From assembly GCA_017301975.1 (NCBI GenBank), contig JAFLEI010000008.1, positions 1 through 64,000 on the forward strand: a stretch of DNA of 64,000 nucleotides. The letters run 5' to 3'. Within the stretch, counting starts at the first letter, position 1. Each line of letters opens with the position of its first letter. The position numbers were made by a program, and so were the translations under genes. Source of the DNA: Verrucomicrobiota bacterium. Its GTDB lineage: Bacteria > Verrucomicrobiota > Verrucomicrobiia > Verrucomicrobiales > Verrucomicrobiaceae. The notes beneath the pieces were generated by a model. That model did not search any database. It was not told the DNA's origin and was given only the letters and a program-made list of their open reading frames with translations. This document shows, in pieces, positions 14,735 through 20,534 of the stretch.

Positions 14735-15574
14735 ATGCCCGCCACCCGCTCACCCCGCCGCCAGCCAAGGACCAAGCCAAAACCCAAGGCCCCCGTCCAC
14801 GACTCCGGCTTCAGCACCCCCAGTCTCGACCGCGCCCTGGCCGTGCTCCAATGCCTCGGCGGTCATCCCCTCGGCCTCACTCTTTCCGAAATCGCCGCAG
14901 ATCTAAAACTCTCCGTCAATTTCGTCTACCGCGTCACCCAGTCCCTCGTCTCCCACGGCTACCTCGTGCGCGATGCCGAAAAACGCTTCAGCGTCGGCTC
15001 CGCCATGCTCAAACTCTGCCAGCCCGTCATCGATGACATCCCCCTCACCGAGGCCGCTCTCCCCGCCATGCGCTGGCTCAGTGATCAAACCGGTGAAGCC
15101 ACCCACCTCGGCATCCTCAGCGGCTTCGAAGGCATCGTGCTCGAGCGCGTCATCGGCCGCGCCATGATCAAATTCTACGTCGAGCGCGGCACCCGCTTCC
15201 CCATTCACACCAGCGGCCCCGGCAAGGCGATGCTCGCCTTCAAACCCGAACCCGAGCGCGACGAAATCATCGCTGGAATGAAGTTCGAACGCTTCCAGCC
15301 CTGGACCATTTCAAACCGCAAAGACTTCCTCAAGTGCCTCGATGAAGTCCGCATCAACGGCTTTGCCACGGATGTCGGCGAACACCTCGAAGGCCACCAC
15401 TGCCTCGCCGCCCCCATCTTCGATGCCGAAGGAAACGCCATCGCCTCCCTCTGGATCACCGGCCCCAGCCAGCGTCTGAGCGAAGACCGCATGACCAAAC
15501 TCGCCGCAGTAGTGAAAAAAGCCGGCGACATCGCCACCACAGCCCTGCGTGGAGGCGCCCTAGGCCGTGGTTGA
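14735..15574 (+). CDS. IclR-family transcriptional regulator
   Basis: A 279-residue DNA-binding regulator. After a basic Pro/Lys-rich N-terminal extension (about 1-25) comes the IclR winged helix-turn-helix at about 30-90 (SLDRALAVLQCLGG, LTLSEIAADLKLSVNFVYRV, GYLVRDAEKRFSVGSAML). The C-terminal effector-binding GAF-like domain covers about 105-275, with the usual GPGKAMLAF. IclR proteins commonly control uptake and breakdown of aromatic or sugar-acid substrates and often their own gene. The next gene on the strand is the DUF1592 cytochrome, a possible target, but a hairpin and 175 bases separate them. The effector is unknown. Confidence 0.88.
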   Translation: MPATRSPRRQPRTKPKPKAPVHDSGFSTPSLDRALAVLQCLGGHPLGLTLSEIAADLKLSVNFVYRVTQSLVSHGYLVRDAEKRFSVGSAMLKLCQPVIDDIPLTEAALPAMRWLSDQTGEATHLGILSGFEGIVLERVIGRAMIKFYVERGTRFPIHTSGPGKAMLAFKPEPERDEIIAGMKFERFQPWTISNRKDFLKCLDEVRINGFATDVGEHLEGHHCLAAPIFDAEGNAIASLWITGPSQRLSEDRMTKLAAVVKKAGDIATTALRGGALGRG

Positions 15575-15638
15575 AAGCTTCCACGTGGGGTCAGTCCGCA
15601 GAACGGTGCAGATCGCGCCAGCGTCCTGGAGTGCTCCA

Positions 15639-15689
15639 GTCCTCTGGAGCTTTCCGCACGCCATGGGACATTCGAAAGCTCCGGAGGAC
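15639..15689. repeat. 16-bp inverted repeat upstream of the DUF1592 gene
   Basis: GTCCTCTGGAGCTTTC (15639-15654) faces GAAAGCTCCGGAGGAC (15674-15689) with one mismatch and a 19-base loop. Further GGCGC/GCGCC pairing lies just outside. It may be a REP element, an attenuator or a terminator-like structure between the IclR gene and the cytochrome gene. Confidence 0.6.
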
Positions 15690-15749
15690 CGGCGCAGTCC
15701 AAAACGCAAAGCGCCGGTGCTGCCGAGGTTTCAAACACCGCCTGGTCGC

Positions 15750-18272
15750 ATGAAGCATCTCCTCTCCATCCTGAGCCTTCTTCTGGCACAAGCGCAGGCC
15801 CACGCCCAAAGCGCACCGCCCCAGATCGAGCAAAGCTGCCTCGAATGCCACGACCAGGACACCACCAAAGGCAGCCTCGATCTCACCGCGCTCCCTTTTG
15901 ATCTCACCAATCCCGCCACCCGCGAACGCTGGATCCGCATCTACGACCGTGTCGAAAAAGGCGAGATGCCCCCCAAGCCCGAAGACCTCGCACCGCCAGA
16001 CCGCGCCGCCCTCGTCAAATCCCTCTCCACCTCCATCTACAACGCCGATCACGCCGACATCCTCGCCCACGGACGCGGCCCCCTCCGCCGCCTGAACCGC
16101 GACGAGTACGAACAAAATCTGCGCGATCTCCTCCACCTTCCCGACCTCGACATCCGCGACATCCTCCCCGAGGACCGCGAAGGCCACCGCTTCAACAAAA
16201 CCACGGACATGCTCGACATGTCCCGCGTGCAGCTCGTTGCCTATCTGGACGCCGCAGAGGCCGCACTGCACGCTGCCATGACCACCGAAGCAGCCCCACC
16301 ACCGGTAATCAAATATCGCGCCGTCGGCACCGATCTCTTCCCCGGCACCGGCACCTTCGGCAACCGCGAGGCCATGTTCTTCACCCGCGACAACAAGGCC
16401 GTGGAATTCAAAGGCCAGCGTGATAAATCCGAAAAGGACGTCGCCAAAGACGAAACCATCGAGATGGCTTTGTTCCGTTCAGCCAGTTGGCCCTACCTCG
16501 GCACGCCCAAACACTTCACCGCCAAACGCACCGGCAATTACAAAGTCCGCTTCTCCGCCCGCGCCGTACTCCAGCAGCCCGGCTACGTGATCACCCCGGC
16601 CACGCAGCCCCTGCCCATGACCTTCCGCACTCGCAAACCCGCCGGCGTGGACATCATCAACGAAGTCCACGACTCCGGCGGCATCATCGACATCCAGCCC
16701 GAAAAGCGTGTCTATGAAACCACCGTGCGCCTGCGCGAAGGCGAAGCCATCGAATACAGCCTGCTTGGCCAGCCCATGCCGCTGGCCATGAACCCCAACG
16801 GCTCCGCCCCCACCTACCGCTATCCACCTTTCCCCGAAGGCGGCCAGCCCGGCATCGCCGTCCAGTGGCTCGAAATCGAAGGCCCCATCGAATCACAAAC
16901 CTGGCCTCCGCCCTCCCACCGCGTCCTCTTTGATAACCTCGGCATCGAGCCCAAACCCCAGGACCCACAACAAGACGCGAAACGCCTCCTGCGTCGCTTC
17001 GTCAAACTCGCCGCCCGCGAGCCCGTGCCCGAGGAAGACCTGCAATTGTTCGATGCCCTCATCCAGGCCCAGCTCGCCAAAAACGCCTCCTTCGCGGAAG
17101 CCATGCTCGCAGGCTACAAAGCCTTCCTCGCCTCCGGCGACTTCATCTACGTACGCGAGCCGATGAAAGCAGACGACCACTTCGCCATCGCCTCCCGCCT
17201 CTCCCACTTCCTCACCAACTCACGTCCTGATGCAAAGCTCATGGACCTCGCGCAAAACAAAAAACTGCGCGATCCCCAGACTCTCCGCGCCGAAACCGAA
17301 CGCCTCATCGCCAGCACCGGCTTCGACCGCTTCGTCAAAAACTTCACCGATTGCTGGCTCAACCTCCGCCACGTCCGCCGTGACGACCCCGACATCCGCC
17401 TCTTCCCCGAGTATCGCTTTGACGAATACCTCGTGGAAAGCATGGAGCGCGAAACCCGCACCTTCTTCACCGCCATGATCCGCGACAACCTGCCCGCCAG
17501 CGTCCTGGTCAAAGCAGACTTCGTCTTCGCCAACGACCGCCTCGCCAAACACTACCAGCTTCCACCACTCACTGGCTCCGCCATGCGCAAAGTCACTCTG
17601 CCCAAGGACAGCCCCCTCGGCGGCCTGCTCACTCAGGCCGCTGTTCTGAAAGTCAGCGCCAACGGCACCACCACCTCCCCCGTCGTGCGCGGCGCCTGGG
17701 TCATGGAACGCCTCATCGGCCAGCCACCCCCGCCACCACCCTCAAGCGTCTCCGCCGTCGAGCCCGACATTCGCGGTGCCAAAACCATCCGCGATCTCCT
17801 CGCCCTCCACACCAAATCCAAATCCTGCGCCGCCTGCCACGCCCGCTTCGATCCCGTCGGCCTCGCCCTCGAAAACTTCGACATCCTTGGCGGCTGGCGC
17901 ACCCACTATCGCGGCCTCGAAGCAGGCCAGCGCATCACCGGCATCGACCGCGCCGGACACAGCTACAGTTACACCGTCGCCACCCCCGTCGACACCACCG
18001 GCAAACTCCTCGACGGCCGCACCTTCCAAAACATCAACGACCTCAAAACCCTCATCGCCGCCGACCCCCGCCAGCTCGCCCGCAACCTCCTCCACCAGTT
18101 TACAATATATGCGACCGGCACCCCCGTCCGCTTCTCCGACCGCCCCCAAATCGAATCCCTCCTCAACTCCTCCGCCAAAAACAACTACCCCATCCGCGAC
18201 CTCCTCCACGCCCTCATCCAAAGCCCCATCTTCCTCGGTTGTTCTTCTGAAACAGCCAGTCCCCAAAAGTGA
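15750..18272 (+). CDS. Secreted PSCyt-type cytochrome protein with DUF1587/DUF1592/DUF1588/DUF1585
   Basis: An 840-residue exported protein of the large planctomycete/verrucomicrobial cytochrome family. The signal peptide is MKHLLSILSLLLAQAQAHAQ. A PSCyt1-like haem motif CLECH follows closely, then DUF1587 (LRRLNRDEYEQNLRDLLHLP), a long variable part, the DUF1592/1595 core, and DUF1588 with a second CxxCH (CAACHARFDPVGLALENFD). DUF1585 closes the chain (NLLHQFTIYATGTPVRFSDR). Proteins of this class normally pair with a Tat-exported DUF1552 protein; that gene follows at 19236, after an oppositely oriented two-gene insertion. The ATG at 15750 begins the signal peptide. The exact reaction is unknown; a role in polysaccharide oxidation is often proposed. 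Confidence 0.88.
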   Translation: MKHLLSILSLLLAQAQAHAQSAPPQIEQSCLECHDQDTTKGSLDLTALPFDLTNPATRERWIRIYDRVEKGEMPPKPEDLAPPDRAALVKSLSTSIYNADHADILAHGRGPLRRLNRDEYEQNLRDLLHLPDLDIRDILPEDREGHRFNKTTDMLDMSRVQLVAYLDAAEAALHAAMTTEAAPPPVIKYRAVGTDLFPGTGTFGNREAMFFTRDNKAVEFKGQRDKSEKDVAKDETIEMALFRSASWPYLGTPKHFTAKRTGNYKVRFSARAVLQQPGYVITPATQPLPMTFRTRKPAGVDIINEVHDSGGIIDIQPEKRVYETTVRLREGEAIEYSLLGQPMPLAMNPNGSAPTYRYPPFPEGGQPGIAVQWLEIEGPIESQTWPPPSHRVLFDNLGIEPKPQDPQQDAKRLLRRFVKLAAREPVPEEDLQLFDALIQAQLAKNASFAEAMLAGYKAFLASGDFIYVREPMKADDHFAIASRLSHFLTNSRPDAKLMDLAQNKKLRDPQTLRAETERLIASTGFDRFVKNFTDCWLNLRHVRRDDPDIRLFPEYRFDEYLVESMERETRTFFTAMIRDNLPASVLVKADFVFANDRLAKHYQLPPLTGSAMRKVTLPKDSPLGGLLTQAAVLKVSANGTTTSPVVRGAWVMERLIGQPPPPPPSSVSAVEPDIRGAKTIRDLLALHTKSKSCAACHARFDPVGLALENFDILGGWRTHYRGLEAGQRITGIDRAGHSYSYTVATPVDTTGKLLDGRTFQNINDLKTLIAADPRQLARNLLHQFTIYATGTPVRFSDRPQIESLLNSSAKNNYPIRDLLHALIQSPIFLGCSSETASPQK

Positions 18273-18656
18273 TCAGCCAGCCTTGCGCACCACTTGGAAC
18301 TCTTTTCTGGAATTGAAGAAACAAATGTCGAACTCCATGAAAAAATTGGTCTGCCCAAGCACGAGAGGTACATGGTCAGAATTGCACCATGCGAAAGCCT
18401 GCGTGGTTCCGCTGAACTCGCCAAAGTCTGCCGTCAGCATCACTGCCATGGCCACCGCACCACTCGGTACTCCCGCAATGCGAAGGGTTGCTTTATTCGG
18501 ATTCCATACCAATCCCAACTTCAAACCTGCGGTCCACGGCAGAACGTTGACATCCGCCCCGCTGTCCACCAATGCCGTGTATTCCTCGGCTGAACCGCCG
18601 CCTTTCAATGTAATCGGCAACATCGGGCGTTGCCGTGCATCGTATGGAAACCGCAT
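18273..18656 (-). CDS. Retropepsin-like aspartyl protease domain protein
   Basis: From the ATG at 18656 this is a 127-residue single-domain protein (MRFPYDARQRPMLPITLKGG). The active-site motif is TALVDSGADVNVLPW, a DSG triad as in retroviral-type aspartic proteases. A typical later strand, HVPLVLGQTNFFMEFDI, corresponds to the LLGxxFF element of the family. Such small retropepsins act as dimers. It follows the small gene at 18664-18894 with a 7-base gap, so the two form one unit. Its stop abuts the stop of the convergent cytochrome gene in the palindrome TGATCA (18270-18275). There is no signal peptide. The substrate is unknown. Confidence 0.75.
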   Translation of the reverse strand: MRFPYDARQRPMLPITLKGGGSAEEYTALVDSGADVNVLPWTAGLKLGLVWNPNKATLRIAGVPSGAVAMAVMLTADFGEFSGTTQAFAWCNSDHVPLVLGQTNFFMEFDICFFNSRKEFQVVRKAG

Positions 18657-18663
18657 AGCCGAT

Positions 18664-18894
18664 TCAATGCTGGTTGGCCTCAAGAACTCCCAGCAAAGCC
18701 TGCGCCGCCCCATCCTCAAACTGAGGCGATTGAAGCGCATAGGTGCGTCCGTGTTCCAACGGCTCGACGCTGTCTTCGTTATCAATATCAACCGCCAGAA
18801 AGCGAATCAAACGAAGCTTGTCCGCTGCGGGCAGCAACAGAGCCGATGGCAGGATCTCGCTGAGAGTCATGGACAAGTTTAGTCGGTTGAGCAT
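18664..18894 (-). CDS. Small conserved partner protein of the retropepsin
   Basis: A 76-residue soluble protein, first of the two-gene unit with the retropepsin. It has a helical first half (MTLSEILPSALLLPAADKLR, LIRFLAVDID) and an acidic second half (VEPLEHGRTYALQSPQFEDG). This two-part layout, with a late TY-x3-SP motif, resembles small proteins I associate with aspartyl protease-like genes in cyanobacteria, where they look like toxin-antitoxin pairs. That likeness is from memory. The start could instead be the Met at 18870. The function is unknown; inhibition or substrate presentation for the protease is a guess. Confidence 0.6.
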   Translation of the reverse strand: MLNRLNLSMTLSEILPSALLLPAADKLRLIRFLAVDIDNEDSVEPLEHGRTYALQSPQFEDGAAQALLGVLEANQH

Positions 18895-19235
18895 TCAAAG
18901 TCAAAATCCAATGAACCCTTCCTACATTGCCAATTTTTTCTCCCGCAGCCACTCCTTGCGCCCACTCGCCGCGATCACAACGTTACGTGTCCGACTCACA
19001 CTACCCTTCGCCACTCCACTCCGCCGTACACCAGCCCCAACGGGGCTGCGTAATATAGCCCAGGGGTGCCGAGCTTTAGCGAGTGCTCCCCTGGGTATGG
19101 CAATAAGCGACCGGGAAGCAAACCCACCGCCCCGCCGCACCCAACGGTCACCAGCAGCGTCTGCAAAACGCCCCGCCTCACATCTGCGCGCACGCTAACT
19201 ACCTGTCATCCGATCGCCTCCCATCTCCTTGTCCC
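18895..19235. other. Intergenic stretch holding repeat family A copy 2
   Basis: This gap is upstream of both the retropepsin unit (minus) and the DUF1552 gene (plus), so it should hold their divergent promoters. The only recognised element is the repeat at 19029-19182. Confidence 0.6.
19029..19182 (+). repeat. Dispersed structured repeat family A, copy 2
   Basis: It starts CACCAGCCCCAACGGGGCTG and keeps the hairpins CAGCCCC/GGGGCTG and CCCAGGGG/CCCCTGGG, the internal GAGCTTTAGCGAG, and the blocks CCGGGAAGCAAACCCA and CACCAGCAGCGTCTGCAAAA. It is in the same orientation as the copy at 11235-11384. Confidence 0.75.
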
Positions 19236-20534
19236 ATGAACGCTCCTTACATCGCCAAACCCCTTTCTCGCCGTCGCTTCTTGCATAGCGCCGGAGTGAC
19301 ACTCGCCCTGCCGATGCTGGAATGCCTCCGCCCCGTCTTCGGCCGCGCCGCTCAGGTGAAGCCACCCCAGCGCCTCCTCATCATCTCCAACAACCTCGGC
19401 TTCCTCCCCAAACCCTTCTTCCCCAAAACCACCGGCCGCGACTACGAACTCTCTCCCACCCTCGCCACCCTCAGCGACGTCCGCAACGAGTTCACCCTCT
19501 TCAGCGGCACATCCCACCCCGACGTCAACGGCGGCCACAGCGCCGAAAACTGCTTCCTCACCGCCGCACGCGGCCCCACCAAGAGCGGCTTCCGCAATCA
19601 AATCTCCCTTGACCAATACATCGCCGAAAAACTCGGCCAGCAGACCCGCTATCCAACACTCAACCTCGGGGTCAACATCGACAAAGCCAACCGCAGCCTC
19701 TCCTGGACCCGCGATGGCGTCCTCCTTCCCGCCGAAGACAGCGCCCCCGCCCTCTTCCGCCGCATGTTCGTCCAGGGCGATCCCGCCGCCGTGAAAAAAC
19801 AGCTCCAGCAGCTCGACGAACGCGGCAGCATTCTCGACACCCTCCTCGATCAAACCAAACGCCTCAGCCGCGACCTCGGCACCACCGACCGCGCTCGCCT
19901 CGATCAATACCTCACTTCCGTCCGCGAAGTCGAAGAGCGACTCCTCACCGCCCGCGAATGGGAGCTCAAACCCAAGCCCGTCGCCACCCAGCCCGAGCCC
20001 AAAGACATCCAGGACAAAAAACTAATCTTCGAAAAGCTCGACCTCATGCTCTCCATGGCCCAGCTCGCCTTCGAGTCGGACTCCACACGCATCGTCACCC
20101 TCATGGTCGATGCCTTCGCCACGCCCGCCTTCCATCTCCCCGGCGCTGACAACACCACCGAAGGCTACCACGGCCTCAGCCATCACGGTCAGGCCGAAGA
20201 AAAAGTACGCCAGCTTGCCGAAGCCGACCTTGAGCAGATGCGCCTCTTCAAAAAGCTCATCCAAACCCTCGCCTCAAAACGCGAGGACGACGCCCGCCTT
20301 CTCGACCGCACCATGGTCCTCTTCGGCAGCAACATGGGAGACGCCAATACCCACGACAACACCAACCTCCCCATCCTCCTCGCCGGCGGCGGTTTCAAAC
20401 ACGGCCAGCACCTCGCCTTCAAACGCGACACCAATCTCCCCCTCAGCAACCTCTTCCTCTCCCTCCTCCACCGCCTCGGCGTCGACTCCGACCAATTCGG
20501 CTCCAGCACCAGCACTCTCACTGGCCTGACCTAA
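19236..20534 (+). CDS. Tat-exported DUF1552 protein
   Basis: A 432-residue protein with a twin-arginine signal (PLSRRRFLHSAGVTLALPML) followed by a DUF1552 domain over the rest of the chain. Recognisable parts are RLLIISNNLGFLPKPFFP, FSGTSHPDVNGGHSAENCFL, and the late GYHGLSHHGQAEEKVRQL and VLFGSNMGDANTHDNTNLPI. The fold is related to the DUF1501/alkaline phosphatase superfamily. DUF1552 proteins are the usual partner of DUF1592-type cytochromes, here at 15750. The pair is split by an opposite-strand retropepsin module and a repeat. The catalytic role is not established. Confidence 0.88.
   Translation: MNAPYIAKPLSRRRFLHSAGVTLALPMLECLRPVFGRAAQVKPPQRLLIISNNLGFLPKPFFPKTTGRDYELSPTLATLSDVRNEFTLFSGTSHPDVNGGHSAENCFLTAARGPTKSGFRNQISLDQYIAEKLGQQTRYPTLNLGVNIDKANRSLSWTRDGVLLPAEDSAPALFRRMFVQGDPAAVKKQLQQLDERGSILDTLLDQTKRLSRDLGTTDRARLDQYLTSVREVEERLLTAREWELKPKPVATQPEPKDIQDKKLIFEKLDLMLSMAQLAFESDSTRIVTLMVDAFATPAFHLPGADNTTEGYHGLSHHGQAEEKVRQLAEADLEQMRLFKKLIQTLASKREDDARLLDRTMVLFGSNMGDANTHDNTNLPILLAGGGFKHGQHLAFKRDTNLPLSNLFLSLLHRLGVDSDQFGSSTSTLTGLT

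Follow-up and report, generated by a model that had tools for sequence, protein, structure and literature searches.

Phage defence candidates (PDC) listed in PADLOC-DB are described as the product of a guilt-by-embedding screen, and experimental validation is pending for most of them (PMC12988326; PMC12548924). The closest comparable study of bacterial retropepsins that we found describes roles in stress tolerance, not toxicity (PMC12239564). In the literature searched we found no mention of PDC-M52, a two-gene entry of this catalogue, no toxicity, inhibition or defence data for any PDC-M52 pair, and no test of protease toxin or defence units built from a retropepsin. To our knowledge, a retropepsin-type aspartic protease has not been described as a toxin class among type II toxin-antitoxin (TA) systems.

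The window, a 64,000-nucleotide stretch of Verrucomicrobiota DNA analysed here as a whole (contig JAFLEI010000008.1, positions 1 to 64,000), encodes a pair of small genes designated A and B. The product of B matches PDC-M52B with an E-value of 5.1e-29 over residues 10-125, and that of A matches PDC-M52A with an E-value of 1.2e-7 over the first 36 of 86 model positions; among homologues of A, 11 of 13 match PDC-M52A, the best at 1.3e-43. Because A and B match the catalogued PDC-M52A and PDC-M52B, the pair is not new. By these profile matches it is a member of PDC-M52, a two-gene candidate phage-defence system already in PADLOC-DB, a listing absent from the earlier note on this DNA.

Coordinates are collected in Table 1. 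As that note had described from a reading of the sequence, both ORFs lie on the minus strand, inverted relative to the plus-strand DUF1592 and DUF1552 genes that they separate, with 7 nt between them, and the stop codon of B touches the stop codon of the cytochrome-type gene in TGATCA, which is a palindrome. Homology of the DUF1592 gene starts near position 15750. Abutting stops occur at three sites (the window and L033, L035 and L036, and L038). In cyanobacterial plasmid pairs, A and B overlap by 8 nt. Two small, co-directional, coupled genes are the layout expected of a type II TA locus. The A+B stretch has a GC content of 0.547, versus 0.62-0.63 in its neighbours.

Table 1. Features of the A+B locus and its flanking genes, in window coordinates.
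Feature	Position	Strand	Description or basis
DUF1592 host gene	15567..18272	+	DUF1587/1592/1588/1585 planctomycete-type cytochrome protein
TGATCA abutting stops	18270..18275		TGA, DUF1592 gene (+); TCA, complement of B stop (-)
Gene B	18273..18656	-	127-aa retropepsin-like aspartic protease, PDC-M52B family
L-V-L-G of B, second retropepsin signature (hydrophobic-hydrophobic-Gly)	18354..18365	-	alignment; followed by invariant N-F-F
Catalytic D-S-G motif of B, residues 31-33	18558..18566	-	alignment; Asp and Gly invariant, middle residue Ser/Thr
Spacer, A stop to B ATG	18657..18663	-	7 nt
Gene A	18664..18870	-	68-aa small protein, PDC-M52A family
In-frame extension giving 76-aa version of A	18871..18894	-	start codon 18894 reads ATA in L033; predicted -10 box overlaps; probably untranslated
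Predicted sigma-70-like promoter, TTGACT-17-TAAACT	18876..18904	-	1 found, 0.3 expected
DUF1552 (HXXSHH) host gene	19236..20534	+	DUF1552 (HXXSHH) protein

The small gene itself stands, while the length of 76 residues first given for its product does not: start 18894 is not conserved, L033, the nearest relative, having ATA in place of this ATG, and in homologues of A the start codon corresponds to the internal ATG at 18870. A search of the stretch gave a single sigma-70-like promoter, TTGACT-17-TAAACT, which overlaps the 76-aa version, and its predicted -10 box ends 5 nt before position 18870; its hexamers are partly kept in relatives. From the conserved start, the ATA in L033 and the placement of the promoter, A is most likely a protein of 68 aa, and its message is probably leaderless.

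AlphaFold predicts three helices for A at low confidence (pLDDT 66), with a low-confidence central linker; the alignments supplied to AlphaFold were made up of rows other than those from plasmids. A sequence search of the PDB with A gave no credible match. In Pfam, A reaches PF09720 (Unstab_antitox) with an E-value of 0.076, below the cut-off. In a profile-profile comparison by hhalign, against a PF09720 profile built from 29 sequences at PF09720 loci of the window's genus, residues 2-33 of A align with a score of 26.0 and a probability of 54%, versus a maximum of 15.9 for 100 column-shuffled A alignments. By this comparison the N-terminal helical half of A resembles Unstab_antitox; the C-terminal half matched neither PF09720 nor anything else.

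B carries D-S-G-A at 18555-18566, followed by L-P, and near its C-terminal end L-V-L-G-Q-x-N-F-F. Both motifs of retropepsin family A2 are thus present in a single-lobed protein of the expected 100-130 residues, with D31, G33, L100 and G101 invariant in an alignment of 11 B sequences, and the catalytic motif is intact. Pfam model Asp_protease_2 gives weak matches for all 11 B homologues, the best at 8.2e-6, and a profile search of the PDB with B returned HTLV-1 protease at an E-value of 0.21. The AlphaFold model of B has a pLDDT of 42, so the fold assignment is drawn from the motifs and the weak Pfam matches. Inspection revealed no recognisable signal peptide in A or B, and B should therefore be cytosolic, judging from its sequence.

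We give about an even chance to the explanation that A and B make up a single PDC-M52-type cassette, coupled in translation and spread horizontally, which acts as a TA or abortive-infection unit. A, predicted to be helical, would be made first, probably from its leaderless message, and would bind and restrain B, a putative cytosolic retropepsin expected to form a homodimer. Loss or titration of A, perhaps during phage infection, would free B, which could then cut host or phage proteins so that growth stops. The likeness to TA units that the earlier note gives for such pairs has indirect support from gene order, coupling, persistence of A (but not of B) by itself, the remote match to Unstab_antitox, and, as described below, mobility and an insertion slot shared with VapBC; toxicity of B, its inhibition by A and a role in defence are inferred.

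In a phylum-wide sample, B occurs in 2 of 388 Verrucomicrobiota genomes. Within the window's genus, nine of 48 genomes have B, nine have A and seven have both, an association with a hypergeometric p of 1.6e-5 when relatedness is ignored. Wherever they are paired, A and B are adjacent, on the same strand, with A first. The pair also occurs in two other Verrucomicrobiota families (G498 and G702, the latter with a frameshifted B) and on three cyanobacterial plasmids, from Pseudanabaena, Nostoc and Rippkaea, so that the cyanobacterial small-protein/protease pairs mentioned in the earlier note do exist, and the co-occurrence proposed as a check extends beyond the genus with the order A then B always kept. 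The cyanobacterial sample was one of plasmids. Phage and viral collections yielded no homologue of B. Order-wide matches to M52A in G670 and G753 were discarded as chance, having stops or low complexity and no B nearby. An origin by transfer from cyanobacteria was considered in view of the lower GC content and not adopted, because the tree of B has long branches and low resolution and gives no direction. In G702 (L069 45-653), A and the frameshifted B adjoin a PIN-domain ORF and a DUF2281 ORF, a neighbourhood that is possibly TA-like.

The two genes differ in how they persist. Twelve intact B genes have a readable 5' side (G000, G188, G390, G393, G394, G395, G399, G404, G498 and the three plasmids; the B of G426 lies at a contig end and is not counted), and a small ORF precedes every one of them, namely A in 11 cases and an unrelated ORF in one (G188). 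A occurs without B three times (G406, G407 and a Euhalothece plasmid), and once with a frameshifted B (G702). An antitoxin may persist alone and a toxin may not, which is the pattern seen here and the one that an antidote-toxin relation predicts, in small numbers. Substitutions in A number 13 nonsynonymous to 10 synonymous in G406 and G407, which lack B, versus 3 to 10 in paired genes (Fisher p = 0.054); relaxed selection on orphan A is only suggested by this non-significant difference.

In G406 and G407, a SUKH gene occupies the position of B. A without B is seen at L040 4931-5572, L041 3566-4210 and L007 3001-3642, with an opposite-direction SUKH-1 (SMI1/KNR4) gene in place of B. On the Euhalothece plasmid (L013 3001-3985), A stands alone directly upstream of a UPF0175/DUF3368 gene pair, possibly itself a TA pair. 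The G188 locus (L008 1260-1872) has a B homologue behind the unrelated ORF, which is 66 aa long, overlaps B by 8 nt as in the cyanobacterial pairs, and may represent a partner exchange. No relatives of it turned up among the sampled genomes; matches to it in three other genomes lie in unrelated frames without a B-like gene nearby and were dismissed as chance, and with them the idea of a second conserved partner.

These patterns bear on two other accounts of the pair. B could be a direct antiviral or stress protease that leaves the host unharmed, with A as a sensor, adaptor or chaperone, not an antidote, that recruits substrate or holds B inactive until a signal arrives. PDC-M52 is indeed listed as a defence candidate and not as a TA system, and the comparable retropepsin work points to stress tolerance, not toxicity (PMC12239564). 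A mere adaptor, however, would not be expected to persist without its protease, as A does, nor to have an N-terminus with a weak antitoxin-like character, and we consider this account unlikely, if the most serious competitor. A second account casts A as effector and B as the enzyme that processes it, cleaving A so that an active peptide is set free or destroyed. Such an arrangement would suit the strict pairing and the translational coupling, and a protease and a 68-aa protein whose central linker is predicted at low confidence, encoded side by side, could be an enzyme and its substrate; yet A stands alone in G406, G407 and Euhalothece, and a specific substrate relation does not predict the B of G188 with its unrelated small ORF. 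We regard it as improbable.

The orthologous DUF1592/DUF1552 junction of the genus (window 18273-19235 and L044-L060) is a cargo slot. It is empty or nearly so (less than about 150 nt) in L048, L049, L051, L052, L054, L056 and L059, and holds only a dispersed-repeat-like stretch in L045. Elsewhere it contains inverted A+B (the window and L033), SUKH and A (L040, L041), SUKH alone (L055, L058), a PIN-domain gene preceded by a small gene, both inverted as A+B is (L057, L060), a Y1/IS200-type transposase (L053, with a same-looking insert in L050), or an unnamed 129-aa gene (L046, also in L044). The VapBC-like PIN pair in the orthologous slot of G424 and G412 has the same inverted orientation. In the window, positions 19030-19100 form a palindrome-rich stretch (AGCCCCAACGGGGCTG ... 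CCCAGGGGTGC...GTGCTCCCCTGGG) resembling a dispersed repeat of the REP type; relatives have it again in this intergenic region, in some cases as tandem copies.

That the pair splits a DUF1592 and a DUF1552 gene, as first observed in the window, proves to be a recurring situation, found again in two further, unrelated pairs of these genes. One (L035, L036) has host genes 28-38% identical to those of the window; the other is in G498, from another family. Further A+B sites lie beside RidA (L037, L038) and beside a sulfatase gene (L034). Three of six sites thus fall in DUF1592/DUF1552 junctions, with p about 2e-7 if sites are random and independent and 13 DUF1552 genes are counted among an assumed 5600. 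The window genome itself has an empty junction of the L035 type (L075), in which the DUF1592 protein ends in RKR followed by a stop, just as in L035 and L036. The cassette therefore lies directly behind the native stop, and the host gene is unshortened. TGATC was considered as an insertion target and found unsupported, since the empty homologue reads TGAACA.

Three separate junctions of this kind, far above chance if the sites are independent, might mean that A+B has a function for the DUF1592 and DUF1552 genes, such as processing of the cytochrome-like protein, and was inserted there for that purpose. We find this very improbable. The DUF1552 protein gives a weak Tat-signal match, but no signal peptide could be recognised in A or B; A+B also occurs on plasmids and next to genes for RidA and a sulfatase; the same DUF pair is without it in most of the relatives sampled; six other confirmed DUF1592/DUF1552 junctions in the window genome have gaps of 9-30 nt and no cassette; and the same slot accepts unrelated cargo.

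Selection was estimated from three independent close genome pairs, which gave dN/dS values of 0.09, 0.16 and 0.11 for A and, in the same pairs, 0.12, 0.08 and 0.16 for B. Values of 0.08-0.16 indicate that A and B are real, constrained genes. Conservation of the small gene, whose lack would have counted against the module, is thus found both in its start and in purifying selection, and these rule out A as a chance ORF or spurious small gene. The remaining account, that A+B is selfish or decaying cargo without current host function, draws on its patchy distribution (2 of 388 genomes in the phylum sample), the loss of B in two species and the frameshift in G702, but constraint on both genes in all three close pairs makes it the least probable of those considered.

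The TA or abortive-infection reading of A+B thus remains the one we prefer for this locus. Its extension to the family is more tentative: PDC-M52 as a whole may possibly be a TA or abortive-infection system with a retropepsin-type toxin, whose cassette settles behind stop codons in the recurrent DUF1592/DUF1552 slot of Verrucomicrobiota. As far as we can tell, the exact start of A and the evidence on selection and asymmetry are new, and so, with the same reservation, is the finding of one DUF1592/DUF1552 slot common to A+B, VapBC-like and SUKH genes. The locus offers compact, conserved pairs of about 600 bp with clear mutants, natural relatives with A only or with a frameshifted B provide ready controls, and the recurrent slot is a route to other small accessory modules in Verrucomicrobiota.

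Compared with catalogued PDC-M52 systems, the pair consists of the same two genes in the order A then B, and the cyanobacterial plasmid pairs tested match as well. It differs in that the window A matches over its first 36 residues only, its C-terminal half diverging, and in that it sits in a chromosomal DUF1592/DUF1552 junction, with neighbours that do not form a defence island. PDC-M08 also has a retropepsin-type component, M08B, weakly similar to the B of Rippkaea (E-value 0.0012), but the window B does not match it. A 216-aa retropepsin-like protein of G498 (L066 1367-2017, contig C418), with an extra N-terminal region, is nearest to PDC-M08B and possibly includes a fused small partner domain. 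Like B, RimB and RloA of Pseudomonas and APRc of Rickettsia are single-domain D-S/T-G aspartic proteases with Ala after the motif and an expected dimeric state (PMC12239564). Unlike B, RloA is a secreted protein with a role in osmotic tolerance, and RimB acts on poly-glutamate. We found none of the three described with a small coupled partner comparable to A.

With PF09720, a RelB/ParD-like addiction module component, A has in common its size, its upstream position in a two-gene operon and the N-terminal helical motif L-P-x-x-x-K-L-x-L-x-x-x-L, but it scores below the Pfam cut-off and its partner is a protease, not ParE/RelE. The toxin of VapBC is a PIN ribonuclease, and neither of its components is homologous to A or B, yet it too is a small cassette of two genes that begins with the smaller one and, in two sister species, lies in the same orthologous slot and is inverted in the same way.
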